NCBI GenBank assembly: GCA_029959195.1
Contig: CP114118.1
Span: forward strand, 62,001 to 126,000
DNA length: 64,000 nt
Direction of reading: 5' to 3'
Source of the DNA: Dictyophora rubrovolvata
Lineage: Eukaryota > Basidiomycota > Agaricomycetes > Phallales > Phallaceae
In this document: piece after piece, positions 2,883 through 42,072 of the stretch
Layout: the number at the start of each line of letters is the position of its first letter
Position numbering within the stretch: position 1 is the first letter of the stretch
The notes under the pieces: model-generated
Seen by the model: only the letters and a program-made list of their open reading frames with translations
Databases searched by the model: none
Told to the model about the DNA's origin: nothing
Program-made: the position numbers and the translations under genes

Positions 2883-5708
2883 ATGGCCTTGCAATCTTTT
2901 TCATGCTCGTCTGAATCTTCGCCATCATCATCTTTACCGTTTACACCTGAACCCGGGCCATCTTCTTCTACTGCCATATCTGCCTCCACCTCCAGTCTCC
3001 AATCTTTATCTGCGGTTTCGTCACTCAACTGGTTCGCAAATAGTACTGCATTGAATTTCCATGAAGATGTACCTGAAGGGAATGGTTCGATCAACAACAC
3101 TGGAGAGGTTCTGGGGATAAAGTCAAGAAATTTGGTATCACTAGAGGCGGGTCTCTTTTCGGAGTTTACTATTCTACGCGAAGAAGAACAAGAACAAGAG
3201 GACATGATAGAGGAAGATGAAGAAAAGTCTTTTGAACAATGTTCAGAGCCACTTTCGAAAGACTTACAAGAACAACCTCTATCCCAATCGGTGCAACGGG
3301 GTAACTTGTCCAGCGCACGTGTAAGCCTCCCTTTTTTTTCATATTAACATACTAATTAGCTTTCTGGCAGCTCAATGGACATCAAAGCGAAGCCGAATTT
3401 GTAGCAGAATCATCGTTGGTGCCGCATCCTCACTTCGCATGGCCTTCCACCCCACCTCATGCATTACTTCCCTCTAAACCGATTTTTATTCGTTATTTCT
3501 ATCCATTAGACCCGATGACATCCATTCAACAACAAAATCCTGTGTACAACAATCCTCAATGTCCTATTGTACAGCCTATTCCCGTATGGCCTCCTCCCGA
3601 GCTTGTTGGGTGGAGGAAATTGAAAAGAAAAGCACCCTGCTATGACACTATGGACGGTGGACATGTCGCAGGAAAGAAAGGAAAAGCAGATGAAAGTAGC
3701 GAAGACGAGGTGGGTCGTTCTAGCCTCTCTTATATCGTACCTTTTTTTCTCGCCCCCACGAGTGCTTTTTTCTTTGGATCGCAGTCACTCAATATAGTAT
3801 ATTTTCAGGAATATAGACCATCGTCTACAAGTAAACGTACTGTTAAACGTGTCAGATGGAAAAGTGTTGATGATATAGCTCCGGCGCCGGTCTTCAAAAG
3901 CATGACACCTGTTACTGTCGACACCCAAAACAGACCGTTTATTTCTCTCCCTATAAAAGGATCGGTTGATAAATCTTTATACCGCGCTATATCTGTACCT
4001 CATTTGTCGCCTTCTCCCTCGGACGATGAGGATATGGCTCCACACCTTGGCCGGGGTATGCGACGTCGGAAACTTGCGATTAAATTGTCTTTGTCTTTGG
4101 ACCGAGGTGAATGTAGGCCTTCGACTAAGACACCTCGACCTTCTGGGCCGGCAGAAAAGACTTGTCATCAATGCAGAAACTCCAAGACCTCTCCACAGCC
4201 CCCGAAGATGAAATGTTCAGCTCTAAGGTCCAACGGTCAACTATGTTCCTTTGTATATTGTGTAGGTTGTATTATTAATCGGTATGTGTACTTTTTTCAT
4301 GTTCCATCTGTTATGTTGTTCTCTCGGAAGATTGACTTGTTTTTTTTTTTCCAGGTATGACGAGCCTTTCGAAGCTTCTGCGGCGACGTGGACGTGCCCA
4401 TTTTGCCGTGAGATATGTAACTGCAGTCTCTGTATCAGGCGTGCAGGTTTTGGTTACATATGGGACGGACCTTTGGCGGTGGATATAAAGCAAGGGAGGG
4501 TGGCGAACCGAGGGTTTAAGGCTGGAGGGAAGCAGGAAGATTCCAACCTCGTTCCGAGCAGACGTAGATGGTTTGCAAGGCAAGGCGTTGTTACTGGTTC
4601 CCCGGCCTGGATGAGCCAGAGACGCAAAGAAGGCGTTCGGTTTATCGTGGGGCGTAGTCCGAGTCCCAGGCTGGATTCTTCTACTTTGGCCGGTGAATGT
4701 GGATTTATACAACAATTCGAGAAGGAAATGAATGATGAAGGCGAAGATGCTGTAGAACGAGAAGGAGCTTTCGATGGCGCCTCAGTGCAACAAACGACTC
4801 CTATCAACTCAACAGCCTCTCCTTCCAGTTCCAGTTCGCCATTACCGAATCCAAATGACGTTTTTTCGCGATATCGCAGTGGGATGAAAAAACGTTTCTA
4901 TATCGGTCAAATTCTCAAGCGCGTGGAACCTCTATCTACGGCGACGCCACGAACAAAGACTCTGGATGCAAGTGCAGCCAGAGATGTTCAGAAGGATGAC
5001 CGGCCGCAAGCCATGAAGGTACTTCGCCCGCCGTCCAAGCAGCCCGGATTCTACGTGGAGGTACAGGAAGTTAGCTCGGAAGGAGACGAAAAGGAAGCGG
5101 AGAGCGAGAATGAAGCGGTGGCCAAGACTGACGTTGCAGCGGTTCAAAATGAGCTTGTTCCCCAATTAGAACTCGAACCAGTCTCTTCTCCAGAGCCTGC
5201 ATTATCTTATTTCGGCCCCATCTCCATCTCCGATCCAGCGCCCAATTCTACTCCTGGTGTCTTGTACCCTTCCACTTCCTTAGGTACCCTCAATCCTTCG
5301 AACCTGCATGAGTTCCGAGACCTGCATAGCCCAGCGCCAACTCAAGTATGGTCGTCATCAGCTCTCAATGCGCAAGGTCTGGCGCTCGAAAAACGCTTTG
5401 CTGCCAACGCGAACAACACGGAAATTAGCACCGAGGTCGCGAATTGGTCGGACGTTACAGCGTCTCCTGTCGTCAATCCTTCTTCTCATTCTGAAACCAT
5501 AGGTCCTGCTCGTATGCCGCTGAACCCTGAAGATGATTTCGCGCTGCCTCTTCCTGACATATATACTTTTACGCCCCCTGACCCTCTTGCTTCCGGCGTC
5601 GAATCGTGGTTCACGGCCGGTGGTGAGAATAACAACGGGGATGAAGATGTCGATGCTATTGGAGAAACTGAGACCGAGAAATCGTCAAGTGTGGGTGTGG
5701 ATGAATGA
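2883..5708 (+). CDS. CDCA7-like zf-4CXXC_R1 zinc-finger protein
   Basis: Long, mostly disordered nuclear protein (roughly 830 residues) with one cysteine-rich domain in the middle. The domain runs CHQCR..., MKC, NGQLC, CVGC, INRY, then after an intron WTCPFCREICNCSLC. This order is that of the zf-4CXXC_R1 domain of vertebrate CDCA7 (CHQCR...GQFCGPC...NRYG...HCPPCRGICNCSFC). CDCA7 partners the HELLS/Lsh remodeller and supports maintenance DNA methylation; the same role here is inference. Basic clusters (WRKLKRKAPC, KRTVKRVRWKS, RGMRRRKLAIK) and acidic/serine stretches flank it. Introns lie near 3319-3370, 3711-3808 and 4282-4354. The start at 2883 sits in a CCATGG context. The tail after residue about 450 is Ser/Pro/Glu-rich without a known domain. 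Confidence 0.85.
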
Positions 5709-7286
5709 TGATTTTATGGTAACTACTCAACCTTGGCCGGGAAAGGCAGCGCGTGGCTTCAAGGATGGCACAGGTCGTGAAGTACGAGATTGAATTCTTA
5801 GGCTCCGCCAGTTTTAAGAGCGTCTGTCTTCTTCGCCTTTCCTTTGTCACTTCGAAACAATCTCGACATTTTACAGATAACTCTCATGCCTCCCCTCGCG
5901 TGTGGGACTAGCACTCTGTCATTTTTACTCATTTGTTTGTTTTTGTTTTTGATTAATCGCTAAACCTTTGTATTCTAGTTACAAAAGATGACCGAGCATA
6001 ATGTGCGACCTTTATGTGTACTGTATACTACTTTTAGTTCACTCGAATCTAGCAAAATATGTTAATCAGCATTCGTATCATTGGAACTATGAAAAGATAG
6101 AGACGACAGAATATCGTATGATTTAACGAGTGTAAAGGAAGGAAGAACATAATGGTGTTACTTTCAAACAAAAAGGAAAATGAAGCGAAACGAGATAACA
6201 ATACTTCCAAGTTCAAGTTCCGAGTCGTGCTTGTCATGTCACCGTTATGCCGTACTGTTCCTGATTGATGTCGATTTGCTTGTGTTATAGGTCCAGGAGA
6301 ATTACAGACGAGAGATAATATCGGAGTATCATGGGGGTTGCCAGTTTCGTCATATATATACAAGCAATGGTCGCTGATAATCCTCGAAACATGACTGTCG
6401 TAGCGCAAGAACAGTATCAAGAACAGTATCGCGAATGGCGAGGCACGGGCGTTTTGCGTCTCGAGACCACCGTCGTTGATTTACTGAGGATGGAATCGTG
6501 CTGATATGGGTTGAATTTCATTTGAACCATGACCTATTCGAGCTGCCGTTGGTCCTGGAGCTCCTAAAATGATTGACGCGGCAAAAACTCTCTTCTTGCA
6601 TGCATCGAGTAAAAAAGACCGTCAATCTTCAAGCATATACGGACGGCCTTATGATCTAACACTGGAAATGAAGAACCGTTCTTCGTTTTCGATGCGGATT
6701 ACTCCGAAGAGGACGTGGCGATATCATCGATAAGTGGCCGATTCGATTTGTTTGGATTAGGACTTTAGGCGAGAGAACTTTCTGCTTGGTGAACTCGGGA
6801 TTCATACTCGTAACAGAAATAAAACAGATCAGTGGTTTTTTACTTACATTTTGGAGGGACAGTATCCGCCCACATGAGAGTTGAGAGGGTTAAGACGATC
6901 CATGCCAAGTGGGATAACCTAGGGAAAAAAAGAGCTTTTGCACACGAGAACGACAACAAGGGCACGCCCTGGCACACCCTATGCATTCTCATAATCTCGG
7001 GAACAAAAATTCTGAACATGAAGCACACATGAGGCTGATTATTACCAGTTTTTGGATATGTGGTACGAGGACGGAGAGATAGTAAAAAACGGTGCCATTT
7101 TTATTGGCTTTATCGAACATTTCTGAGAGATGCTTTCGAAAAGCCAAATTCATGCAAAAAAAAACACGACAGACAAGACTCGTAAAAGACTCGTGTTCGC
7201 AGTGTTGGAAGCGTTATTGTGACATCGGGTTAGTCGTAGCGATAGTCACATAATCTGTGTGACATGTGACATGTGACAAGTGTTCA
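5709..7286. other. Intergenic, 1.6 kb
   Basis: No gene I can support. On the minus strand a CCCTAG acceptor-like site and a GTAAGT donor-like site flank about 80 bases near 6843-6925, and a short conserved-looking frame ends near 6480, so a small spliced minus-strand gene is possible but unproven. Repeated TGACATG units occur at 7259-7278. Confidence 0.3.
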
Positions 7287-7294
7287 TATAAAAA
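7287..7294 (+). promoter_or_regulatory. TATA-like box before the hairpin-rich region
   Basis: TATAAAAA, about 30 bases before the likely start of the transcript proposed for 7315-9060. Directly upstream is a hairpin, GTCACA...TGTGAC (about 7246-7264). The promoter role is inferred only from position. Confidence 0.35.
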
Positions 7295-7314
7295 CCCGCG
7301 GAAGATGTCCTGTC

Positions 7315-9060
7315 ACGCTGGCAGGCTTGATCCCCCTGTCCACCATGTGTGGCAGCCCGTAACACCGTTGTCCGGTCGGTGTAAGTCTTTCATTATCATT
7401 TCGACCTTCGTTGTTTTCGTGATTAACCTCTCATGTAGGTCCGTTTTTGGCCCACGTTGAGTCTTGGAGATTACCGTCGTCTCGTTACATCTTTTATTCG
7501 TCCATCCATCTATCATTCATTCAACCTCGCCGTCCCCTCATGCTGTGTCCCTCTTCAATCAGCGCCTTGATCGAAGATCTTCCGAAGAATTCGATTCAAA
7601 TCAAATAGTATTCAAATCAAGTACCCATGTTAGTGCGGGTTTGGGAGCTTCTCTTGTCGATATGGCCATCTCACATGTCATTGAATCTCATACCGCCCTA
7701 TATTCCCTGTTCATTTAACGTCGCTCGAGCTTTGCGCTGCAATTTTGGTTATCCGAGGATTCTTTGTCCATCCGTTCATGTGCGGCCAGTGTGCCGTGAT
7801 TTTCTGTTATTCCCGAGTTTTCTTGAAGTCGTAAAGGGACACGACTTCAAGTCCGTTTTGGGGTTGCCGCCCGTGCGCGGCATCCATCCGATTGTTCTGA
7901 TTTATTCAGAACGCCTGTTACTCGAGTTCCATAAGGTGTCGGGATCCTTGTGGAGTCGAGCCATCTCCGTGGGAAGGGGGGATATCCGTCGTTTTTTTCT
8001 CTGGTTCAGCGCAATTTTTAAAGGTCGTTATGACAAGGCAGCATTGGTCGGTATACGGTCACTCCCGTTGGTATCATTTCTCTTGTACCCAGGTCCTGGG
8101 CAGCAGTGGGGCGCATGGGTGTTATTCCAGTCGCTCGGTTTTCAAGTTCGATAGATTTCTAGGCTTCGGATGTTCGGCGGTCGCGTTTTATTCGCGATGC
8201 TTTCCGTTATCTTATCTCGGAATGCGCTTCTCTGCGCATACTTCTAAGTATGTCGGAAGAAGTTTTTTTTCATCGTCTTAACGTGACGATGACGTTGCAT
8301 GCTATGCGCGTGTAGCGGAGGTTGAACGTTGCACGCTTCGCGTGTGTAGCGAAGTTTAAGGAAAATTATATACTATAATTTTCTTTTTCATCACAAACTA
8401 CATACTGTGGTTTGAGAGTAATCCCTAACATTTTGCGTGGGGACTTCTCCAAGTTATTAGGGAGGTTTTGACATGTTACCTAGCATGTCGTTGCGATGTG
8501 TTGAGCATCGGAATTCATCACGAAAACATCGTGAAAGGTATACATGTGAACTATCCAAAGGGGCACATGTAGGAATCTATCGAACACTGTTTCGATAAAT
8601 TCATTATCGTCTTTTCGTAATTGGTACTTCGGTATTGGATGCGTTAAGTGTTTTTTCAAATTAATTACCCAGTTCCCTTTTCCTCGCGTAGTGAAATGTC
8701 TGTTCGCCTGCCTTCGAGCGGTGTTTGGTACGTGCTTGCCTTCTCGGTTTATCAGATCCTTAATGACCCGTCATTCGACTTAGGCTATTGTCCATTACTA
8801 TCAGACGTTTTGTTACGCGCGAAAGCCATCCTTCTGTAGTTATCTTTGTCAATAAGAATCAGTTTATCGGCTTTCAATTGTTTTCGAGTGATTCTATCAG
8901 CCTTGAACAGCATAATTCAGTTATTCAGAACGCGCTGCAGCGCTATTCGATAGAACGTAATGTGTGTATATCAACATTCTACTGTCTATGTGGGGTGTAC
9001 GATTACATGAGGCTTAGCGGAATGGTTCATCGCTTTGGTTTGTGCTGTTCTACTTAATTC
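7315..9060 (+). ncRNA. Candidate structured long non-coding transcript
   Basis: No open frame here resembles a known protein; the longest (175 codons, 7627-8154) has no motif. Three things suggest a transcript. A TATA-like box lies at 7287. A canonical intron-like segment at about 7381-7438 has a GTAAGT donor, an ATTAAC branch-like site and an ATGTAG acceptor. The downstream part is packed with hairpins, several with G-T pairs that would be allowed as G-U in RNA on this strand. Boundaries are guesses: the start is placed about 30 bases after the TATA and the end where hairpins fade. Alternatives are a decayed gene, or unusual DNA structured for another reason. The transcript is inference; the hairpins are seen. 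Confidence 0.3.
7822..8597 (+). repeat. Dense array of consecutive short hairpins
   Basis: Perfect or near-perfect stems follow one another. 7822-7851 (11 bp, loop 8). 7865-7882 (6 bp). 7894-7912 (7 bp). 7921-7960 (compound stem, 5 + 8 bp with one G-T pair). 8222-8239 (6 bp). 8238-8251 (6 bp). 8271-8291 (7 bp). 8336-8354 (6 bp). 8361-8383 (10 bp, loop TAC). 8394-8414 (9 bp with one G-T pair, loop TAC). 8423-8462 (6 bp). 8470-8489 (6 bp). 8494-8510 (5 bp). 8518-8534 (6 bp). 8541-8571 (8 bp). 8578-8597 (7 bp). The stems differ in sequence, so this is not one repeat copied many times. A further bulged hairpin lies at 7567-7599 and a 12-bp palindrome GCGCTGCAGCGC near 8932-8943. Confidence 0.8.
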
Positions 9061-9144
9061 TTCGGGTTTTCATTTTTTGAAGCTAATAGCGATCGTCCGG
9101 TCATTTCTGAGAAAAAAAAAACACAAAGATATTAGATTTAGGCA

Positions 9145-11469
9145 CTAGGAAACTTGATTTATTATACCTTCAGGTTTTGGAAGCCCCTATGAGAGAACGA
9201 AAGGGTGAGGTTAGAATGTAGAGAACGAAAGAAAGCGCACCATAATTTCCAAGACTGTAGGGGCAACATCGCATAACGCACCAACTTCCTCCTCCAAGGA
9301 AGTATCAACCCCACGTATATCATGCTTCTCTTCTTTGAACACGAACCCAGCTTGGTCTCCAGGACCCCCGGGGCCTGCAATTATAAATGGCACCGGGTTG
9401 GTCGTATGCGCTGTATGCGGATCGCCAGTCTCGGGGTTGATCATTTGTTCCGCATTACCGTGGTCGGCGGTGATCAATAGTACGTATCCTGCCTTTTGAC
9501 ATGCGTCGTATATGGTCCCGACTGCTTTGTCTGTTGCGCTTATGGCTTTGACGGCGGCGTCGTAATTCCCTGTGTGACCGACCTTTGTACAAGTTCAGAA
9601 GTTGTTGTCGACCAGTGTATTATGTATTCTTTCTTACCATATCTGGCGGAGCAAAATTACACATTACGAATTCGTACTTGTCCAGTGTGACAATTTGGGC
9701 TACTTTGTCCGCGACTTCTTGTACACTCATGTGAGGTTGGAGGTCGTACGTCGCAACCTAATAAAACGGTGATGAACGGCGACGATCAATTGATAGTTAT
9801 CTCATTACTTACCTTGGGCGACGCGATTAATTCTCTATCTTCGCCTTCGTATTGCTTCTCCACGCCTCCGTTGAAAAAAAATGTAACGTGAGCGTACTTT
9901 TCGGTCTCTAAAAAGCAGAGCGAGCGGATTTTTTTCTCAAAACGCGGGTTGAGAAGAATGGAAAATTTTGTTTTCTTTTACCTGCGATGTGAGACTGACG
10001 TACTCCTTGCTTTGATAGCCACTCGGCCAATACATTCGTCATGGCTTGAGGCGGGAAGGCCACGGAGAAAGGGAAGTCTGTCTTGTATCGGGACATTGTC
10101 GTTATGTCCTGAGGAAAAGAGTTAACGTTGAGAAATCGGCAGAATGGAAATTGACATACGAGGTCTTTGGGTATATCCACCTCGATCGGTTTGTCTGGTA
10201 AACCAAGGACAGTGACAATTTCTCGCATACGATCAGACCGGTAATTGAAAAAGAACAAAGTGTCGCTTTCTATTAGAAGTTAGATAGAGCCGTTTTATAT
10301 TTTGTAACCGAGTGCAATTTTGTATATATGTACCTTTAACTCTTCCGTCACCTTCGATGACGATAGGTTTCAGGAATTCGTCAGTTTCGTCCTTTTTGTA
10401 TCGCTCTTCGATTTTGGAAATTATCTTATCTTGAGATTTGAGCTTCTCGCCTACGTGGAGGTAAAGCATGAATTCTGGAAATACACATATGAATCTCACC
10501 TTCACCGGTTATGAGAGCATCTACGGCAGTCTTCACACGCTCCCATCGTTTATCTCGGTCCATTGCGTAGTATCGTCCTACAACGGTGGCTATATATGAG
10601 AGACCGGAGAGGTGTCAGAAGGGAAATGCAACAGCGGAAATGTGTGGGGCACCTATTTCTCCAAATTGCTCCTTTTCAATGAATTGAAGAAGGTCTTTGG
10701 CGTAAGTGGTTGCACTTCTAGGGGCAGTGTCGCGACCTTTTTGCGATGGGGATTAATGGATCGGTCAGACAACTTTCTAGATGAAAATTTAAAAAAAAAA
10801 TATTCTTACCATCTCCGAAAAAGTGGATATAGACATGAGGAACGCCGACTTGTTTGGCTGTCTCGAGTAAGGCGTATAAATGGGTTATATGAGAATGGAC
10901 GCCTCCGTCGGAAACCTGATTGGTGGGTGTATATAGTAAAACACAGACGGAATGATGGGATGACATACGAGGCCTAATAAATGCAACCTTCCGTTTCCGT
11001 CTTTGGCACGTTTGCAGGCGGCGATGATTGGCTTTTCCTTGTGGAACGTTCGTTTCTTAATGGCTAGATCGATACGGACGATATCTTGCCAGACAATGCG
11101 ACCTGCTCCTATGTTCAAGTGACTGTGATGAAACAGATGAGATTGAGAACGTCATATGAAGATGGATGGACATGTGAGGGGATAATCGCATACCCGACTT
11201 CTGAATTGCCCATTAAGCCATCGCTTAAACCGACAGCAATACCGTGAGCAGCGAGTTCACGATGAGCATGATTTTTGGCGATGGAATCCATACTAGTCGT
11301 ATCTCCATCTCTGATAGCGTCTCCTTTTGCGTTTGGGTCTGGAGAGATGCCCCAACCGTCGTGAACGCTGTGATTGAAGGCAAAATGAAGAAAGAGAAGT
11401 TAAAGGAAGGCGATTGATTTGTTGTATATATACTTACATTAGACATACTTTATTCTTGACTTGTACCAT
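9145..11469 (-). CDS. gpmI: Cofactor-independent phosphoglycerate mutase
   Basis: Interconverts 3- and 2-phosphoglycerate in glycolysis, using two metal ions (classically Mn2+) and a phosphoserine intermediate. Spliced from many small exons. The protein begins [20 protein letters not shown], with the first metal site DGWG. The catalytic serine is in GLMGNSEVG, followed by [13 protein letters not shown]. Further family marks are [12 protein letters not shown], the arginine region [35 protein letters not shown] and the C-terminal metal site [10 protein letters not shown] followed by [13 protein letters not shown]-like residues. The last exon encodes [13 protein letters not shown] and the TAG ends at 9145. 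The ATG at 11469 opens the family's first motif within ten residues. Length (about 510-520 residues) is normal. All metal- and serine-site motifs are present, so it looks functional. Confidence 0.93.
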
Positions 11470-11756
11470 TATGCGTCGTTGCTGTAGATGATGTAGTAAA
11501 TGGAACGGACGAAAAGGTAACCCGCTGGCGTTGACGGCGTTTGCCGATGATGATCTGCATGAGATCTATGACGCGCGGCGCCCATTGTTGTGAGATTATC
11601 TGATCTTTGTCCGTGTGTCCGCGTGTCCAGTCGTGCAAAGGACAACTTGAGCTTCGAATGTGTTTACGGACGCAAGGAATGGGTATATATTAGGGCCTAA
11701 CTCTGGTAGCTGCGGCATTAAACTGATATTTCACAACGTGTTCTTTCTATACTCTG

Positions 11757-12122
11757 ATGACTTCTAACACTGTTACCACCAACGCCCAAAATAAAGACGC
11801 GTTCCAGGACGCGTTTTCTACTCTTGTTGAGCACTACTTTGAGCCGGAGGAGGATAGCGGGGTAAGTTTCAGAGCATGTGTATCGTTATTGTTTCGCCAC
11901 GCTAACCACTGTACAGCCGTGCTACCCAGAAATTACCCGCCTCCTAACTCCTCAAGAAGAAGAGGAGATAATTAAAGAGTGGAGCGAATGTAGTTTGAAG
12001 CAGGTACGCGATGCACATTCCTTTTCTTCCCCAATATGTTATTGACCCATTTTTAGCTCGACATGCTATTCGACCATCTCTCCCAGTTGATAAACTCTAG
12101 AAACCAAGAGTTTAGCGTTTAG
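11757..12122 (+). CDS. Small spliced protein of 85 residues, unknown
   Basis: Not recognised. Three exons join in one frame: MTSNTVTTNAQNK..., then after an intron beginning GTAAGT near 11862 a segment PCYPEITRLLTPQEEEEIIKE, then after an intron beginning GTACGC near 12004 a segment ending NSRNQEFSV before a TAG at 12120-12122. Canonical splice sites keep the frame at both junctions, which supports a real gene. The product is acidic, helix-prone and has no signal peptide or membrane segment. It is divergent from gpmI, with about 290 bases between their starts, so they may share a promoter region. Confidence 0.6.
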
Positions 12123-12552
12123 TGTGCCTTTGTCCCCTGCTGCGCTGTCAAAATGGATTATGAGCCATGTTATGTTGCAGTAGAATAATAAAATATTATT
12201 AAACCATTTTCAGTTCCTTGTCGTGTAGACAGTGTGAGGCGTCCCATTCTGAACGACGTTGAAAGTTTATAGTGGTGGTTATCGATTGAAAGAAAGATAT
12301 CGCTTAAAATTCAGCCTAGGCGCCGGATAACCCCAAACCCGACAGCGCCAGTGTGATTAGTATCTCAATAGTGAGTGTCCCAGTTGTATTCTTTGGATCA
12401 AGAAAAGTATTACATGATGGACTCATATAATCGCCAGGATCGTCGTCTCCGTACATACAATAAAGTATATCTATCAAATCAACAAGAGGCTGCTGTCCTG
12501 AGAATCTGACTCGGAACATGTACTATTAATACTAGTCCATTCCACCCCGCGT
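12123..12552. other. Intergenic, 430 bases
   Basis: Convergent 3' ends of two genes. A 67-codon minus-strand frame at 12316-12519, ending in a hydrophobic LTIEILITLALSGLGLSG tail, is present but has no other support. Confidence 0.35.
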
Positions 12553-14349
12553 TTATTGCTTCTTCTTAAACAACTTGAAAGCATTCAGAATTTTCGTTGC
12601 CGGGTTTTTCCCCACCTTCGCATTAGAGTTGACGGATCCTTGCGGCCCATTGAGAGATTGCACTGAATCGTTAGCATTATTATTATTACCATTCAAGTTG
12701 GGATATGGGTAAGGATCAGAATTATGGCTGGTAATCGAACTCAAGTTCGCGTTCATGTTGCTTCCTAGTTGTGGAGACTGAACGTATTCATTTACCGAAG
12801 GTGACGACGCCGAAAAATGATTCAAGTTCGTAGGCGGTGGCGCTGGTGTTCTTCGTGGCGACGAGTTAGCGGATCCCAGTAATTCTGATTCTGGTCCCGT
12901 AAACGAATTCTTCAGCGGAGAAAGTGTTGATTCCTTTCTAAATCTTGCCGATTGAGCTGGATTGGCAGGTGTAGTCGAGTCTTTTCGCTGAGTGTTCGCT
13001 AGCACTGGCACTGGCGATGTGGTTTTCCTGCGCTCATTTTCCCTCTCCCTTTCGCGAGAACGATTACGGGTCGTGGCACTTGATACAACGGGTTTTGGTT
13101 GTTTCATTGCCTGTTCATCCGGGAATGAGAAAATGCTTGGAAGAGAGGCTGCTTTGGATAGTGAAAGCGGGCGAGAAGGAAATGGCGAGTGCTTTTGGTA
13201 TGGTTGCCCCTGGAATTGAGGCTGCCCAGGTAAATTGATTTGCCATGACGGTTCAGGTGTATTATTATTGTTCGTTTTATGCGATGAATCATTACTGTCC
13301 TTGACGCGTTGCACAACAGCGATCGAGATAGTACCCCATTCCTCGTTGTTCGTCTCTATATAGTCCAGGTCCAACCTCGGTCTCGGGTTATTCAATGCGC
13401 GAGGCGAAATCGCTGATTTTAGGAATTGAAAAGGCGATTCCTGAATGATTTGCGAGATGTCGATAGGCGACCTTGTGAGATAGAGTTTAAAGAAACCGAT
13501 GTCTGCGCGTTCTCCTTCGCTTAGAGCAAAGATGAAAGGAGGAAGACCGTCCGCTGTGCAACCGATGGTACATGAGGTATGTGCCGGCAATGGTTCTTCT
13601 GTATTGGTTTCTTCGTCCATTGGAGGGAAAAAGTATGGAACTTGTAGAGATATAAGACGTTGAAGAGGTATATAATAAAAGCAGCACTACAAACCTATGG
13701 ATTGTTCCCTGACGTCGAAATATAAAAGATAAGGGTAGAGTCCATAGTCGGTATCGTTGAAAATATGCATCGAATAGGCCTCTTTGGGATCAGCTGGGAT
13801 ATCGATCCGGCCGGATCTGTTCAGATTACGTCCGACAAAGTTGGTCTTTCCGGTACGCTTGTCGGCCTCGATGCGATAAAATTCAATGTTCACCAACGGG
13901 AGAAAAGCGGTTGCGTTGTTTCTCCTTCTGAAGAAATAGTTCCATCTTGCTATACCACGGAGAACGTGAGCGACAGGCTCGAGGCGAGGAGGAACGGTAT
14001 GCCTCATTCTATCGACGCCATACTTCCCAGCGTACGGATTATTGGTGAAAAAGGAGACCAATCCATCCCTCTCAAAATCGACAACAATCTCGGCACGTTC
14101 GCGCTCTACTTCGATGAAGCTTTGAGTCGGGTCATTGCACGACACGATGTTTCTCCAGATGTCGTTTACGTTCAAAACGCTTTGAAAAGTCGACGTAAAA
14201 TAAACCCGCAGCTCTTTACCGAACCCACGTTTCATTTCCCGGGCATATTTAAGATGAGCGGGTAAAGCCCGAGGAGTCTTGGGCAGCGGTGTTTTTGGAA
14301 ACTCTGAGTCCCGGCTATTATAAGAGGGCGATTTTGGGTAATTTGACAT
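12553..14349 (-). CDS. Unknown Ser/Pro-rich protein with conserved N-terminal half
   Basis: Not assigned to a family. Two exons join across an intron (about 13639-13703, GTTTGT donor, CAAG acceptor) to give roughly 570 residues. The N-terminal part (starting MSNYPKSPSYN) is a folded-looking region with FGKELRVYFTSTF, NNPYAGKYGVDRMRHTVPP, VNIEFYRIE, YSMHIFNDTDYGLYPYLLYFDV. Exon 2 continues ERADIGFFKLYLTRSPIDIS and EEWGTISIAVVQRV. The overall look is of a beta-rich module. Similar 'FFKLYLT...IDLS.I' segments occur after caspase-like domains in mushroom proteins, but no caspase domain is present here. The C-terminal third is Ser/Pro/Asn-rich, ending in a basic KLFKKKQ. No signal peptide. It is divergent from the DUP copy 1 gene. 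Confidence 0.7.
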
Positions 14350-14867
14350 CGTACAGCGACAGGGATGGCTAAGCTGGATAGCTTGTAGGCGAAAGGTCCC
14401 TTTGTTTATGTATTTTGATCAGAGAAAGATACATTATAATGCTTGAAAAACATGGAATACGTCAGGCAGGAGCGTGGCATTGTGGCAGAGAGATTACAAG
14501 TCCGCCGGGATTTGCCGGTGTGATTCAAGGTGACGGGTTTGTTCATTCATAACCATACACATCTACTAGAAAAGTTATTTGGATAAACACTGACTATAAC
14601 TTTTCGTTGTTCTTCGGCATCTGCAGGAACACAAAATGGACAACGGTGACAACTCGGAACTCGATCGACTTCGCGGTATTACCCTGTTTGGCCCTCGGTG
14701 CACACAAAGGACATGGTCCCCGAACTCTCGATAGGTTTCGAAAGCTTGTGTGGACAATCCAAAAAAAGTTTCCTTATAAAAACGGCGCGCACTTGATCAC
14801 CAACTCCTTTTTCTCTCCCGAATCCATTACCTTCTCAAAACTAAAATCGCGTTATTTGCAAGACCAA
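14350..14867. other. Intergenic, divergent promoter region
   Basis: Lies between two divergently transcribed genes. The frame of the next gene stays open back to 14607, so an upstream start or a spliced 5' exon is possible, but no in-frame ATG is found before 14868. Confidence 0.4.
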
Positions 14868-16141
14868 ATGCCCGGAGAAGAAATTGACACCGTCTCTGAA
14901 CGTCTAAACACAGGTACTGATGTTGTGGCGACAACATCGAGCTCTGAAGACGAAGGTTATTCAGGCGATTATTTTAGCGAAGAATCGGAAAACGAAAACT
15001 TTTCATTACCTCGTGAAGAAACTCATCACGTCAGGAAAGTACTAAAGCTTAGGCGTCGCCACAGGAGTTCAGATCCACCATCCGTTCCCTCTTCTGTTGT
15101 GTGGTACGACTCTGACGATTTTACACATGAATCCGAAGTTCCACCTTCAGCCCATGAAGATGGTCAACCTGAGGATAACAACTCAGACACAACATTGGAA
15201 GCAACGCTCGGCGAACAGTGTCAACATCCGTGCTGTCTGAGGCCTTTGTCCGACTCTGATCATGGACAACAACACCCGTACCGATGCGCATGTGGTCCCT
15301 CGTACTCGAGATCGTCGCCCGACTCGGAGAGCGCGTCTGAACAACGAATCGAAGGTCCCCTGGAGAGCTATTTTAACGAACAGCATAGTAATGAGCTTGA
15401 AAGATTTCTCCGGTTGGGTTTTCAAAGTCCACGTCATTCCATGAGGTCGCCGGACAACAATGGGCCTCATGGTATGGTTATCAACACGGCGGAAACTCAC
15501 TACGATATTTGGGATCCCCAGTCAAGGTATATACTCCTATTATATAGCCGTACCTGTTATTATATTAATAATATTGCACTATTAGCTCTCATGCAATTAT
15601 AAGTGGTTTTATCTGTTATCGCGCACTTCCATGTATGAGTTCAACAAATGAATTAACCTGGCTCTCTATTGAAACCCACACGACGTTCGGAAACAATACT
15701 GATCCAAAGTATTTCATGCTGTTGGAGAATACCACCATGAATGAGGCCACTTTTCGAAGAGCTAGCACTGGCAGTGATGGCCAGCCTTTACCCTCACGTC
15801 TTCCACAACACCGAGCTGCATCATCTCCCTTTTACAATTTCCTGTCTCCCCTATCCGTACTCCACCTTCAAGTTGAGCCTATCACATCCCAGTATGGTAC
15901 TCCAGTTTGCACGTTTTTGTTGATCTTTCCGGTTGGCGATCCATTCTTCTTTCCAACCGACCAGGTCGGTCATTTTTCCCGGAAAATCAAGATTGAATGT
16001 AAAGGGCATGTGAATATACGTGAGAGCGACGGTTGCATGAGTATCGCTCAGGTGAGCCAGACGGCAGAGGTTGTTGTACATGTGAAAAGAACTAAAGTGA
16101 TGAGAAACGGGGTTTGGATTCATTTTGAAGCTCCTGTATGA
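14868..16141 (+). CDS. Unknown protein 'DUP', copy 1
   Basis: Not recognised, but clearly homologous to the gene at 33132-34290. Two exons meet at an intron of roughly 55 bases whose donor (AG|GTATAT) lies just after HYDIWDPQS and whose acceptor is ATTAG near 15583. The first part is acidic and Ser-rich with a Cys/His cluster (CQHPCCLRPL...CACG). The conserved part is the C-terminal 110 residues: YNFLSPLSVLHLQVEPI, TPVCTFLLIFPVGDPFFFP, RKIKIECKGHVNI, SIAQVSQTAEVVVHVKRTKVM. In copy 2 the same places read ILGFLSPSSTLDLQLKPI, TQVCMFMLTLPVADPFLFP, RTIKVRVRGVIRV and ESIVEENIVVDVLKKTVLM, so the order and spacing agree. The start is the first in-frame ATG; no signal peptide or membrane helix. Function unknown. 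Confidence 0.75.
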
Positions 16142-16357
16142 TTACTGTTTTAGAAGTCTTATAATATTTTACAATAAAACAATATGTAAACTCTACTGGT
16201 GTTGTTTTAAAGCAAACAAAGTGCGATATATGAGTATATGCACTGACAGATAACAGATTCATGACCACTGGCATGCATGGAGATATGTACGTGAATTAGG
16301 CTCCGAGTCTCGTCTCATTCAGCTAAACGGGCTGATGAGACCGTGCATATGTCATCA

Positions 16358-16619
16358 GCCCGTTGTCCTTTTACTTTCCAGGACAACATACGGGCAAAGT
16401 TTATAATGTCTTACAAAGCCTTATAAAGCCTGGTCCGGACCGTATTGGCACCCGGGGTGACGCCCCTGATGTAACTCGTACAGTACTTTTAGTTTACTAA
16501 TGCGTGAGATAATTACAGTAATATGCATTAGTAAACTAAAAGAGTACGGCGGCCATAACACGCCAGGCTTCAAACCTTGTCCGTATGCTGTCCTAAAAGG
16601 TAAAAGGGCAACGTCGGGC
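16358..16619. repeat. Foldback (MITE-like) element upstream of reductase copy A
   Basis: Imperfect terminal inverted repeats: 16358-16402 pairs with 16571-16619, both starting GCCCG and sharing TTTTAC, GGACA and CATACGG blocks. An inner inverted repeat, 16483-16503 against 16525-16547 (TTTTAGTTTACTAATGC core), sits at the centre. A separate hairpin (GGGCTGATGA...TCATCAGCCC, about 16329-16361) abuts the left end. There is no coding capacity and I cannot see a clear target-site duplication. It is absent from the matching place before copy B. Confidence 0.6.
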
Positions 16620-16673
16620 AGGTGACGTGATGTAAATGCTGGTTTCGAGGCTACACTTCAACAGGAACAGAAC

Positions 16674-16681
16674 ATATAAAG
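16674..16681 (+). promoter_or_regulatory. TATA box, reductase copy A
   Basis: ATATAAAG 70 bases before the ATG at 16751. The same box and the following AGAGTAA, GGTCAAATTCAGAAACAAAG blocks occur before copy B (31016-31025). Confidence 0.6.
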
Positions 16682-16750
16682 AGTAAAGATGTACATAGGT
16701 CAAATTCAGAAACAAAGGAAAAAACACCTTCGACTTCCATACAGGACTCG

Positions 16751-18660
16751 ATGTCTTCCACTACAGCTACTCGCAAAACTACCATGCCCTATGGTTAGCT
16801 TCTACCGCGTCTTGTCATAGATTTTATTCATATCTGACCATGATATTGACTTTAGTTAGACTGGGTAATTCTGGTCTCAAAGTCTGCAAGATTATTCTCG
16901 GGACGATGCAATATGGAAATCCCAAGTGGCAGCCTTGGACCCTCGGCGAAGAGGATGCCATAAAGCATATCAAAGCCGCGTACGTTATAATCCAAGACTT
17001 ACGAACCTCGTAGACTAAACGATTGTTCATCAGTTATGACGCCGGAATCCAAACTTTTGATACTGGTAATTATTTATTCTTCTGAGCTGTTACCATAGAA
17101 TGTCGCATTGACGTGGCACAAGCAAACGGGTATTCAAATGGAGAGAGGTAAATCTTCTCTGGACGTTTTTTAGGGTTGAAAGTTTTGACGAGGTTTTATC
17201 ACAGCGAGCGTATTCTCGGAAACGCAATCAAGGCCTTGAATCTTCCACGGGAGAAAATTGTAGTAATGACCAAAGTGACTAATCCCTTTGATATACACCA
17301 AGGGAAGTATTGAATGAATCTAATTATCTTAAGGTTTACGCAGTTGTCGGCCGCACTCCGGAAGCTGCGTTTTACGCAATCGGGCCTGGAGATGAAGCTG
17401 AAAAAAATGGTTATGTCAATCAGAAAGGCCTCAGCCGCAAAGTTGGGTTTTTTTATTACCATTGGGACTATCGTCTGATTTTTTCCCCTATCAAATAGAA
17501 TATCTTCGACAGTGTAAAGCGCAGCTTGGAAAGACTTCAACTCGATTATGTAGATGTTTTGCAGTGTAAGGGACTGAACCGTTGCTGTGGTCAAATTTCT
17601 CATATTTCTAGGCCACCGTTTTGACTATGAAACACCTATTGAAGAAACTGTGGGTGACGTGTCTTATCTGATGAGTTTATTAACTAATATATATGTTCTT
17701 CGAACAAAGATGCAAGCTTTGCATGACGTCGTGCAGGCCGGCTATGTGCGTTATATTGGAATGAGCTCTTGCTACGCCTACCAGTGTGAGTAATAAATAT
17801 CTTGCTTGTGTGTATCTTTTCACTAGTTGAATGCAGTCCACGCTATGCAAAGTGAGTTTTCGCTGTATTTTGACTAGCAAATATAACACGGAGTCTTTTC
17901 AGACTATGCCATCAACAACAAGCTGACACCCTTCATTTTAATGCAAAACCATTATTCTTTGGTATATCGAGAGGAGGAACGTGAAATGATGCCAACACTC
18001 AAAGCATGTCCCTCAGTTTTTATTGAATTTTCTTTTAAGCTAACATATATTTACGATGTGTGCAGCACTTTGGGGTTGGCTGTATTCCTTGGTCCCCGTT
18101 AGCTCGGGGTTTACTCACCCGACCTTTGAAACAGAAAACGAAGAGGAGTGATGGCGACCTGTTAGTTTCGTTGAAGATTGACACTCAGTATTTCCTAACA
18201 CATTCTGATTAGGTACTTGCAATACGAATACAAAGCTCCCTGTACTACTGATATAATCAATCGGTCAGTTGCTTCGATTCAATTATGGAGGTCAATCCGC
18301 ACTAAAAGCTGAGCTTTTTTTTTCCTGAATCAGGGTGGAAGAGATCGCCAAGAAGAAACAAATCACAATGGCCCAGGTTGCTTTGGCCTGGTGCTTCTCC
18401 AAACCGGGTAAGTGCTGTCACTGATAATTGATTATCCGTAAATATGTCATGCTGAAAGTCCTCTGAAGCGATTACTACTCCTACTGTCGGAACTACGAGT
18501 TTGCAAAACCTTCAGGAATTGATAGGCAAGTAAATGTTTTCGTGTAAATTATTTGAAGGCTGACGAGCATGTAGCTGCGCTTGACATGCGCTTGACTGAT
18601 GGGGAGGTACAATATCTCGAAGAGCCTTATCAACCCCAAGCTGTGTCGGGTCATTGGTAA
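16751..18660 (+). CDS. Aldo/keto reductase (aryl-alcohol dehydrogenase type), copy A
   Basis: NADPH-dependent carbonyl reductase of the fungal AKR9/AAD group. About fourteen small exons join in frame. Visible marks are VRLGNSGLKV, ILGTMQYGNP, the catalytic-tyrosine segment FDTANGYSNGESERILG, VVMTKV, YVNQKGLSRK, SLERLQLDYVDVLQCHRFD (with the active-site histidine), GYVRYIGMSSCYAYQF, FILMQNHYSLVYREEERE, CIPWSPLARGLLTRP, MAQVALAWCFSKP, TTPTVGTTSLQNLQELI and YLEEPYQPQAVSGHW. Reading it needs two GC-AG introns: AAA|GCATGT after MMPTLK (near 18005) and ATAG|GCAAGT near 18523. It is about 85-90% alike to copy B at protein level by eye. No disabling change is seen. Substrate unknown. Confidence 0.88.
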
Positions 18661-25782: not shown

Positions 25783-26454
25783 TATCAGGACTACTCACTC
25801 AGACTAGAGGGAGGTGTCAGGGCTACTCTCTCAGACTAGAGGGAGGGGATCCTAAGCAAAATATATTCTAGGAATAATACTAACTCACCTAGAGGGAGGG
25901 GATCCTAAGAGAACAAACTTAGGGATCCCTCCTCTAGGGCTACTAACTATATACTATGAGAAACGGTGAAGGCCACATGCGGCCTTCGGTTCATGGACTG
26001 GGTGTGGATACGCACCGGTCCCGGACTTTTAGCCGGGGCCTAGGCCATGGCTCTGATGAGAACAGGTGCTCAGCGTCCGTTGAAGGGAAAATGGGAATAC
26101 AAAAAGAGAGAGAAATGCCAGAGATGGGATAGAATACAAGAAATATGGAAATAAATAAAATAGACCAGAACTGAAGATAAATGTAGGAAAATAAGGGGAC
26201 GACGCTAGTGTACCCTGACAAAGGCCACATGCAGCCTTCGGTTCATGGACTGGGCATGGATATGTGCCAGTCCCTAGGCCACGGCTCTGATGAGAATGGG
26301 CGCTCAGCGCCTGTTGAAGGGAAAATGGGAATACGGAAGGAGAGGGAAATGCAAGAGATGGGATAGAATACGAGAAATATGGAAATAAATAAAATAGAGC
26401 AGAACCAAAGATAAACGTAGGAAAATAAGGGGATGATGCTAGCATACCCTGACA
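25783..26454 (-). mobile_element. Compound family A solo LTR (one copy within remains of another)
   Basis: The outer ends (TATCAGGA start, CCCTGACA end) are flanked by the duplication CAAAG (25778-25782 and 26455-26459). Within it lies a complete second family A LTR at 25815-26220 with TGTCAGGG and CCCTGACA ends, in the same orientation. The inner copy has no matching flanks, so it may derive from recombination between copies, not simple insertion. Fossil. Confidence 0.7.
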
Positions 26455-26629
26455 CAAAGTAGAGCATCATTAATGAAGAGTTGTGCAACCCCAAATTTAA
26501 ATTTTTATTATATATGAGTCTGTCATAGATGTTCTTCTGTTCTTATAGCTCATATTGTTGTATTCTAGTTTGAAGTGCTTCTCTTTCAGTCTCCAAGCTT
26601 TTTGACGTTCTTGCTCAACTGTAGGTATG

Positions 26630-27034
26630 TGTCAGGGTACGCTAGCATCGTCCCCTTATTTTCCTACATTTATCTTCAGTTCTAATCTATTTTACTTATT
26701 TCCATATTTCTCGTATTCTATCCCATCTCTTGCGTTTCCCTCTCCTTCCGTATTCCCATTTTCCCTTCAACAGGCGCTGAGTGCCTGTTCTCATCAGAGC
26801 CGTGGCCTAGGCCCTGGCTAAAACTCCAGGACTGGCACATATCCACACCCAGTCCATGAACTGAAGGCTGCATGTGGCCTTCACTGTTTTTCATAGTATA
26901 TAGTTAGTAGCCTTAGAGGAGGGATCCCTAAGTTTGTTCTCTTAGGATCCCCTCCCTCTAGGTGAGTTAGTATCTTTCCCAAAATATATTTGCTTAGGAT
27001 CCCCTCCCTCTAGTCTGAGTGAGTAGCCCTGACA
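26630..27034 (+). mobile_element. Solo LTR, family A, complete
   Basis: 405 bases, TGTCAGGG to CCCTGACA, with the duplication GTATG on both sides (26625-26629, 27035-27039). It is the best reference copy for the family in this window. Compared with copy 1 at 21056 it has lost essentially all CpG dinucleotides in its central part. Confidence 0.88.
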
Positions 27035-27549
27035 GTATGTCACAAAATTCGAAAGTGCCAGATCTGGTCTGATCTGGCCTTCAGGCTCCGTCAGGAGTAC
27101 CTCTCCTGACGGACCTGATCAGATTCAAGACTTAGATCTGGAATGTGCAGGACTGGTCAGGTTGAGGTGAGCAGTATCAGGAATGCATGGCAATGATCTG
27201 GGAGAAACTCGCAGGTCTAGATACATTAGCAGATCATTTTCATTTTCATTGTATCAGCTCAAATGGCGCAATTAGCACAATTCATGTTAAAGTTAAAACA
27301 ACTTGTATTATGAATTATGAATTACATAATCCTTAACTATGTACAAGGGAACATTATATATACTACAAAAATTACACTACTAGGCTACTAAGAATTTTAC
27401 CGCAAGTCTAGTATTGTCATTAGTCAGGGTGACGAAAATTTCGGGCTTTACTCACATTTTACACACCACATAGCTGCACAATGGGAAGGGCCATTGTCCT
27501 GTAACAGTAATTAGAGCCATATTTAAAGGATTGGTATATATTACCTACT

Positions 27550-39348: not shown

Positions 39349-42072
39349 CGACGAACGTGGAGCTTGGTGAAGAGTAGTTTTTGGGAGAAAAGAAGCGCCG
39401 GCCCGCGGATTAGTAAGAAAGAGCGGTTACTAATTGTCCCAGTCCCCACGTCCAACCCACGTCATTCAGCTCAACTTCTGAGGCTGTTTCATAGCGGAAG
39501 GTTATATGAATTGCTCGTTTTTGTAATGACATCTTATCTAATATTCACGAAAACCATGCGTAATTCAGTTTCTCATCTAGCTGGAAACATATTTTTGATT
39601 TTCTGTACTAGATTTTGAAGGTAATTAAAGCAAAAATGCATAGACTCCCTTTACTAGTAACATGACCACGACCATAACTTTCGCGATTCTCTCACACAGC
39701 TTCACAAAAAACCAATTAATGAAAAATGAATGGATGGCGCAAGCTTTGGGGGCTGTTTTATTACAGAAGAACTTCCGTGAAGTCACTCGTAAGCACATTA
39801 AGGGTTTATCTCATTGTTATTCGTGTGATTTAAGATTATACAGCGCAACGGATGAGAGAATTAACAGAGATCAATGTACATAGAACATTATAGGACTTAA
39901 CAAATACGTTCATTCGAATTGGAGGTTCTCCTCTTGACATCTAAATCAAGTCGACCCCTCGCATGGGTTAGTCCCGCCCGTCGAAATATAATACCCACCG
40001 AAAGGAATTACTTGGAATAGTCAAAGCGAAAATGAAGACAAGATAGCTTTGGAGGCAAACATACTGGATTATACAGCCCACGTCCGACGCACGCATCCAA
40101 CTCCAGCATTTCCCTTTTAGAGGATTTTCAGGGTAGGCAGCCAAATGGTGGGAAGAAGTTGGAATCTTCTTTCTGAAACGCGTCCAGGCCTACTATCTCA
40201 CGCAAGTACTCCAGGTTTTATTGAGATTGGGAGGGAGTTCACCTACGACGCTGGCCAATCGTAGCCGTTGTTAGGCTACCCGAACTTGAGTCGGTTGTGA
40301 CCAATTCAAATTGCTTTTACACCACTGACGTCTGAGGTGCACCAGAATCTTTGAGGCCAATCAATCAACGAACCGAATGGACCAGTCTGAGTAAGTACTA
40401 CTTGGTAACTGAGCACAATCAATTGCACGTGTCATATTTCTTTCATGAACTTTTCCTCTTATTCTATGGATATTGCTTGTGAATATTACACACTTGTTTC
40501 TCAAACTACAACGTGTTTACCAATCACTATATAGACGAATCTGATTGCAACGGTGACCGGTAACCAGCGATCAGTGATTCTTCAAGCCAAATTATCTCAA
40601 CCACTGACAGATTAATGTCGAAAGTGGGAACAATGAATATAATACTTTTCACGTGAGTTCCCAATATGTTATTGGCACTCTGAATGATGAATCACTCTGA
40701 AAAATTGTCAGCTGCGCGAGCGTGTCAACTGCTCTTGGCCCTTAAACTCTCGATTCTAACGTGTGATGAACTGCTTGACAACTTCTTTCACCAATACCTT
40801 GCATGCCAACTCTTGTGATGTATCATCATGTATGGACCACGTCATATCATGACATTACTCCGGTGTCTCCCTGTGGACTCTAAGCTCCCGTCATTTCCCA
40901 TCCGTCCTGAGTTTATTTTGGTAACTAACACTCATAAATGTCAGGTTATAATACGGACGAGCGTGTAATGGCGCGGGCGCTGTTGAGCTTTACATGTTGA
41001 CCGAAGCCTCGGTTAACACGATTTGCGATGATCATCGCGGGAATCGTCATTGCTCTCGCACTGCTGTCAGAGTAGGCCGTTTCAAGGCCTCGCTGTCTGT
41101 TTCGTTGCCCGTTTCGAGATGTCGGGAATACCTCGGGAATACCACTTATCCCGTTTTAACTCTGAACACCCCCGCTGCCCGTCCGTTTCGATGACCGTTT
41201 CGTGCGCCGTTTCACCTATGTTGTACAGTTGCTCAAAAAAATCTTATATGATTTATTAAAGAAATATTTCTAGAAATTGTCCTTAAAAATTCATCCCTGA
41301 CCGAGAACGGCCGATGGATGAAACGGACAGCGAAATGGCCTTGAAACGACCCACCCCGACATCCCCTAATTCCAGTCCCGTACATTGAAAACGCCCATTT
41401 ATGGTTGACCAATACATTGTTGGGTCGAACGCCAATTTTTTTTTTCTTTGCAGCGGGTGAATGGATAAAAGGATCAGGTAATACGTGGTGTCATCTAATT
41501 GGGAAGAACAATATATGTAGAATATAAGGGGGAAAGTGTTGTCTGCTGAAGAGAGCCAGGAGGAGCTGACAGGGAAAAAGGGAGTCTGTGGAAGGGGAGA
41601 TATAGGATAAAAGTAGGATAGAAAATGTATTTTAGTAGAAAATAGAGGCGAATACAAAATTGAACTGTGGTCTGAAGTAAACTAAACTGTCCGCTATTTT
41701 TCCGCGTGCTCTCATTCGTCAGCTGAAGAATTCTCTTGTCCGGGAGTCCCCGAACTCAACACCCGCGGCACTCGAAGGTACAAAGCGCGTAATTGCAATT
41801 TCTTCTGGTGTATTGAAGAAAAATTATGCCTCGGCCACCGGCGTACTTGAGAAAGGAGATGAATTCACTGTTTATGAATGCTGGACCAGGTCCAAATCAT
41901 TTTCCCGGTACTTTGTTGCGTTATGGATGCGAGAATAAAATTCAGAAAATGGCATATCTGTTCAAACTTTCGGGGCATTTTTTGCACTTCTTATTCACAG
42001 TTATGATAATCAGATTGGTCAGACTCTGATATCCAAAAAACGGTGAAACACATCACATGCAATACTACAATA
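39349..42072. other. Intergenic, 2.7 kb
   Basis: No gene supported. It holds the inverted repeat at 41071-41365. A 73-codon frame at 39662-39883 has no family resemblance. Confidence 0.4.
41071..41365. repeat. Imperfect inverted repeat with CCGTTTCG motifs
   Basis: The left arm (from GTAGGCCGTTTCAAGGCC at 41072) matches the reverse complement of the right arm (GGCCTTGAAACGACCCACC near 41337). CCGTTTC is repeated six or so times in the left half. It has the look of a decayed non-autonomous DNA transposon; ends and target duplication are unclear. Confidence 0.4.

Follow-up and report, generated by a model that had tools for sequence, protein, structure and literature searches.

We identified a dense cluster of hairpins in an intergenic part of a 64,000-nt stretch of contig 2 (hereafter the window; the genome comprises 28.2 Mb in 11 contigs), and with moderate confidence we read the locus as a single-copy gene of ~1.7 kb on the + strand for a structured non-coding RNA, probably an RNP scaffold. 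An earlier note on this DNA had offered a structured non-coding RNA as one of several roles, and it is the best supported of them, by folding energy, by helices with G-U pairs on the + strand, by promoter and intron signatures, and by the absence of a convincing coding frame. Support is good for the hairpins, moderate for the strand and the anatomy of the gene, weak for the overall fold, and almost nil for the function. Table 1 lists the features of the locus and its neighbors. A small unrecognized gene may additionally lie between 5850 and 7250.

Table 1. Features of the hairpin locus and of the neighboring genes (window coordinates)
Feature	Position	Strand	Remark
zf-4CXXC_R1 frame	ends 5708	+	Upstream neighbor
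Tandem heptad promoter-like motif, GTGACAT GTGACAT GTGAC	7259..7277	+	Sequence
TATA box	7287..7294	+	Sequence
Putative intron, GTAAGT ... TTAAC ... TAG, 58 bases	7381..7438	+	Sequence
Putative-intron segment complementary 14/15 to 8517-8531	7409..7423	+	Adjoins branch point
5' block	7811..7912	+	Nested hairpin 7811-7863 (perfect 11-bp stem), hairpins 7865-7882 and 7894-7912
Imperfect 15-pair hairpin, 2 G-U	7921..7960	+	In 7915-8140, where total energy is ordinary
Main block	8146..8585	+	13 hairpin loops in MFE fold; closed multi-branched domain if 16-pair helix forms
16-pair helix, 15 Watson-Crick + 1 G-U	8146..8161 / 8570..8585	+	Arms 408 bases apart
Tandem duplication	8292..8357	+	Carries related hairpins 8293-8317 and 8327-8351
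Alternative partner of 8573-8584	8591..8602	+	11 of 12 complementary
Hairpin with C(UUCG)G loop and G-U-rich stem	8616..8643	+	8610-8650 z -2.5 on +, +0.7 on -
18-pair helix, 14 Watson-Crick + 4 G-U	8685..8702 / 8802..8819	+	Closes second domain 8685..8819
iPGM (phosphoglycerate mutase) gene	frame ends near 9211	-	Convergent downstream neighbor

The excess of hairpins over random DNA, as claimed earlier, was confirmed, and the cluster at 7822-8597 is real. When perfect hairpins were counted as Watson-Crick stems of at least 6 pairs with loops of 3 to 9, this region held 10 non-overlapping hairpins, compared to a mean of 0.84 and a maximum of 4 in 200 dinucleotide shuffles; 8222-8597 alone held 7, versus 0.53. 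With stems of at least 5 pairs and loops of 3 to 10, we counted 13 hairpins in 7811-8650 (mean 4.28 and maximum 10 in 300 shuffles) and 8 in 8137-8590 (mean 2.78, maximum 8, again 300 shuffles). The minimum free energy (MFE) fold of 7811-8650 contains 23 hairpin loops, 21 of them with at least 5 pairs, whereas its shuffles gave 15.1 on average and at most 20 (n=60). The original count of at least sixteen hairpins thus stands only for stems that may contain G-U pairs and short interruptions. Across 8146-8585 the 13 loops of the MFE fold lie within the shuffle range (mean 8.0, largest 15, n=200), while its energy is beyond all shuffles.

The locus is also the densest spot, without equal, among the 284 kb of genome examined (the window plus 20 kb of adjoining sequence, and 200 kb taken only from contigs 1 and 3, with 33 kb of contig starts excluded). 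The baseline there was a mean of 0.71 perfect hairpins per 376 bases, and the locus came top of 1374 windows of that length, with 6 in the sampled frame. The runners-up, two overlapping 376-base windows with 5 each, fall inside a dispersed repeat. One dispersed repeat, at 26400-27230, is strongly structured whichever strand is folded (z -4.8 and -5.1 for 26770-27220), and a related copy lies just outside the window at C2:126001 (L014:1-300).

Folding energy gave a concordant picture. The earlier note had proposed comparing the locus with shuffled sequence, and this comparison places it well outside the shuffled range: for 8146-8585, z was -10.6 on the + strand and -6.8 on the - strand (200 shuffles). 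On the + strand, 7800-8660 folded to -306.9 kcal/mol versus -242.9 kcal/mol in shuffles (z -11.8, reached by 0 of 20), and 7811-8650 scored z -7.8 against 60 other shuffles; the precise z thus varies with the set of shuffles used. The 5' part, 7811-7915, is likewise well folded (z -5.3 on + and -5.5 on -). The flanks are ordinary (7440-7812, z +2.2; 8591-9110, z +0.3), as is 7915-8140 (z +0.15). Because the stretch between the blocks and the surroundings are ordinary, the signal consists of two blocks, 7811-7915 and 8146-8585, and not of an even run. Outside the two blocks, the putative transcript mostly folds no better than chance. In 150-base windows (25 shuffles each), the lowest z at the locus was -4.8 on + and -5.9 on -; of 432 such windows in the remainder of the stretch, 11 fell below z -3, the lowest at -4.2. 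Elsewhere, 41000-41450 also folds better than its shuffles, with z -3.8 on - and -2.7 on +.

Dense structure is common in viruses, transposons, and other mobile elements, and the window does contain a structured dispersed repeat near 26400-27230. It is nonetheless very unlikely that the hairpins are the surviving structured portion of such an element. The locus (7200-9120) had no second copy in the whole genome at E<=10 in a DNA comparison, which would miss distant copies, and there was no Pfam match over cut-off in six frames and no Rfam match. A dispersed repeat or MITE was rejected on the same single-copy result at E<=10. Model R2 matched only itself in the 284 kb, and model R1 only itself in the window.

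Not all of the hairpins are independent of one another. The stems had been described as unrelated in sequence, which is wrong for two of them, 8293-8317 and 8327-8351, which sit in tandem copies of a 32-base unit that are 81% identical. Two changes distinguish their 10-pair stems, U-G to C-G and G-C to G-U, and both preserve pairing as + strand RNA only and would disrupt it on the other strand; this comparison comprises two events only, and the predicted probability of the second hairpin ranges from 0.18 to 0.85 by the stretch folded. By eye, no loop motif common to the hairpins was seen, and a repeated site for one protein is accordingly unsupported.

We further asked which strand would carry the structure. 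Both long helices contain G-U pairs, which exist only on the + strand. Among mismatches at the stem ends of the core, G-T accounted for 5 of 8 and A-C for 0 of 8, a small number, compared to 20% and 14% in shuffles; over 7811-8650 the counts were 6 of 13 and 2 of 13, compared to 23% and 11%. The energy difference between the strands for 8146-8585 was equally extreme in 1 of 200 shuffles. Over longer spans this difference was ordinary (7811-8650, z -1.0; 7440-9070, z -0.6), stem counts that admitted G-U or, alternatively, A-C showed no difference between strands (z 3.0 and 3.2), and the 150-base window at 8151 reached z -5.9 on - and -3.4 on +. The data moderately support an RNA read from the + strand.

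The same measurements bear on a purely DNA-level origin, in which template switching created the palindromes as inverted repeats, or a DNA-binding protein uses them as sites, and they have no RNA role. The - strand of the core also folds far better than chance, several stems are perfect, and the 5' block, at 7811-7915, shows no strand preference, all as expected of such palindromes. However, the bias of core stem ends toward G-U over A-C and the G-U pairs inside both long helices argue against them, as do the at least 10 separate events that would be needed at one spot and the 408 bases that separate the arms of the 16-pair helix. We regard this origin as unlikely, and the earlier proposal of DNA shaped for protein binding is disfavored by the stem-end bias. 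A small-RNA precursor array, in which each hairpin is cut by Dicer, had been suggested as well. Consecutive hairpins are indeed numerous here, and PMC9757828 describes the well-supported mi/milRNA hairpins of fungi as short. Yet the longest hairpin has 16 pairs and 20 of the 23 stay under 13, apparently not enough for a 20- to 22-nt duplex; this count disfavors the array, which we consider highly improbable.

Putative signals of a gene precede the structured RNA that we favor. The heptad motif, the TATA box, and the putative intron occur in this order and on the same strand (+) upstream of the hairpins. GTGACATGTGAC occurs 102 times in the genome, compared to 3 times for the reversed control; it is repeatedly tandem with 7-base spacing and is apparently a strong promoter-like motif. 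Of 14 further sites with tandem heptads, just 2 (L044 and L053) have a TATAAA in the 140 bases that follow, and so the heptad also occurs without a TATA box nearby. The genome has six U2 RNA matches (L035-L040), and in these six genes the model match starts 32 to 33 bases downstream of the TATA; given this spacing, transcription here would start near 7320. GTGACATG was found at -100 in 1 of 5 U2 genes checked, and several of the U2 genes carry a GTCCGTGCACGG-like element ~60 bases upstream. The pattern of the putative intron recurs at 0.049 per kb per strand in the 284 kb. As read from the sequence, the putative promoter and intron and the lack of coding are supported, and the locus is presumably transcribed.

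A promoter and an intron would also suit the mRNA of a small coding gene, with the hairpins in a structured UTR that controls translation or stability, and the locus does hold open frames. The longest, of 175 aa (7627-8154), extends through hairpins, returned nothing in a comparison with viral contigs, and had a codon score of -0.092, under all 39 training frames (lowest 0.004), which were open frames of at least 250 aa and not verified genes. Frame 7464-7718 scored +0.082, equal to the training mean; it starts with TTG, however, and its sole ATG leaves 18 residues. Frame 8648-8839 scored +0.038, like one real iPGM exon (+0.045), although the codon score separates short frames poorly (at 120 to 250 aa, the 5th to 95th percentiles span -0.12 to +0.12). 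Seven ORFs are listed in 7266-9057; a Pfam scan of six of them, the 175-aa frame included and frame 7266-7460 left out, gave no match over cut-off. A small coding frame at the locus is unlikely, and we hold the UTR explanation to be improbable.

How a non-coding RNA from this locus would fold is best defined locally. Stem 7822-7851 had a predicted probability of at least 0.99 in all 5 folds containing it, and hairpins 7822-7851 and 8270-8292 reached at least 0.97 in every fold containing them; short local hairpins are thus predicted robustly and would be the secure part of the structure. Hairpin 8616-8643 had a probability of only 0.23 in the fold of 7300-9080. Two long helices, of 16 and 18 pairs, go beyond what the earlier note saw. 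When 7440-9070 was searched for uninterrupted helices spanning no more than 600 bases, their scores were 36 and 39, respectively, the latter being the best; helices with a score of at least 34 averaged 0.07 per shuffle over 60 shuffles, and the - strand yields none. The total energy of 8680-8822 is unexceptional (z -1.7).

The two helices respond differently to the stretch that is folded. The 16-pair helix was predicted with a probability of 0.91 in 8137-8605, 0.89 in 7811-8650, and 0.88 in 7811-9100, compared to 0.20 in 7439-9100, 0.06 in the spliced RNA 7320-9100, and 0.00 in the unspliced RNA. In the model, this helix is therefore predicted only without 7439-7810, and the ring that it may close depends on where the RNA starts; a closed ring would need an RNA starting near 7811, or possibly a folding order that the whole-molecule energy model misses. 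The 18-pair helix had a probability of 0.95 to 0.96 in 3 of 4 folds containing it, with 0.96 in the spliced and 0.09 in the unspliced RNA.

Competing pairings were also predicted around the 3' arm of the 16-pair helix. Segment 8573-8584 can pair with 8147-8158 (12 of 12, one G-U) or with its rival partner 8591-8602 (11 of 12), and the latter pairing had a probability of 0.79 in the unspliced RNA and 0.03 in the spliced RNA. The pairing of 7409-7423 with 8517-8531, which competes with hairpin 8518-8534, had a predicted probability of 0.89 in the unspliced RNA, and the hairpin itself went from 0.00 in the unspliced to 0.96 in the spliced RNA. Two matches of at least 14/15 occur in 7300-9070, compared to 0.05 in 20 shuffles in which nothing but base composition was preserved. 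In the folding model, this competition hints at a switch that splicing would throw, with the reservation that folding energies are unreliable for RNAs of such length.

In the model that we propose, the transcript would start near 7320, probably lose the intron 7381-7438, and end before the iPGM gene. The RNA would consist of the 5' hairpin block, a main block of ~12 short hairpins, and a second domain built on the 18-pair helix; the 16-pair helix may close the main block into a ring, a step that we infer for the mature RNA. Each of the differing short hairpins would offer RNA-binding proteins a docking site of its own, and the RNA would most likely act as an RNP scaffold. A bolder reading, which we consider unlikely, takes the locus for a novel class of large structural RNA in eukaryotes that signals through its fold that splicing is done: removal of the intron would free hairpin 8518-8534 and let the 18-pair helix form, and later 5' trimming to near 7811 would allow the 16-pair helix to close the ring. 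The locus is an orphan RNA candidate worth following up and not a proven new class.

Known families did not account for the locus. A search of the window with the 4227 families of Rfam 15 gave 0 matches over gathering; in 5900-9250, relaxing the limit to E 10 brought up two matches, the better at E 1.9, and neither falls in the hairpins. RNase MRP RNA was rejected, since the genome's RF00030 match, 72.1 bits and over cut-off, lies elsewhere at C2:1801654-1802070 and none falls in the window; in that search one bacterial control matched below cut-off. RNase P RF00009 gave no match in the window or genome, the U3 search was silent, as was one for a basidiomycete pheromone family, and all three are uninformative because their controls were silent too. 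Telomerase RNA was rejected as well, for no 8-mer of the CCCTAAA repeat template occurs on either strand in 4518-17176. One Sm-like motif is present in 7321-9130, at 7741. CCCTAAA (TTTAGGG, plant type) repeats are present at 9 of the 11 contig starts (L002-L012), and a search for three consecutive TTAGGG gave 0 matches. Together with the U2 and MRP RNA matches, these repeats mark the genome as eukaryotic, and its size and short introns make a fungus the most likely source. Separately, AAACCCTAAAC at 46832-46842 contains 11 telomere-like bases beside a FAD/NAD-binding oxidoreductase-like frame, probably by chance; the fold around it is ordinary.

To our knowledge, few large structured RNAs are known in fungi beyond telomerase, RNase P, MRP, signal-recognition, splicing, and ribosomal RNAs. 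Among the literature matches listed, with most subscription journals out of scope, none described a fungal RNA of this kind. A single-copy RNA with more than 12 packed hairpins would be an outlier, as the basidiomycete lncRNAs surveyed in PMC6525899 fold weakly. Those lncRNAs resemble the locus in being intergenic, non-coding, and mostly of one or two exons; they are reported there as less stably folded than coding transcripts, whereas the core of the locus folds ~10 SD better than its shuffles, which is a different measure. The fungal telomerase RNAs, described for basidiomycetes in PMC10035886 and PMC12506658, are likewise long structured RNAs from intergenic genes. Unlike them, the locus carries no CCCTAAA template stretch of at least 8 bases, though the repeat stands at 9 of 11 contig starts. 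The bacterial RNAs GOLLD, ROOL, and OLE share extensive secondary structure and a poorly understood function with the locus (PMC12286853); they are bacterial or phage RNAs backed by covariation, whereas the locus comes from one genome and has no Rfam match. Also comparable are the conserved fungal intergenic structures 1 to 4 and an AU-rich hairpin motif, structured fungal RNA candidates of which four are intergenic (PMC8216456 and PMC5640933). Three of the four intergenic structures are described as a single hairpin plus an H box, and all came from comparing several genomes, while our locus, known from one genome, has more than a dozen hairpins.
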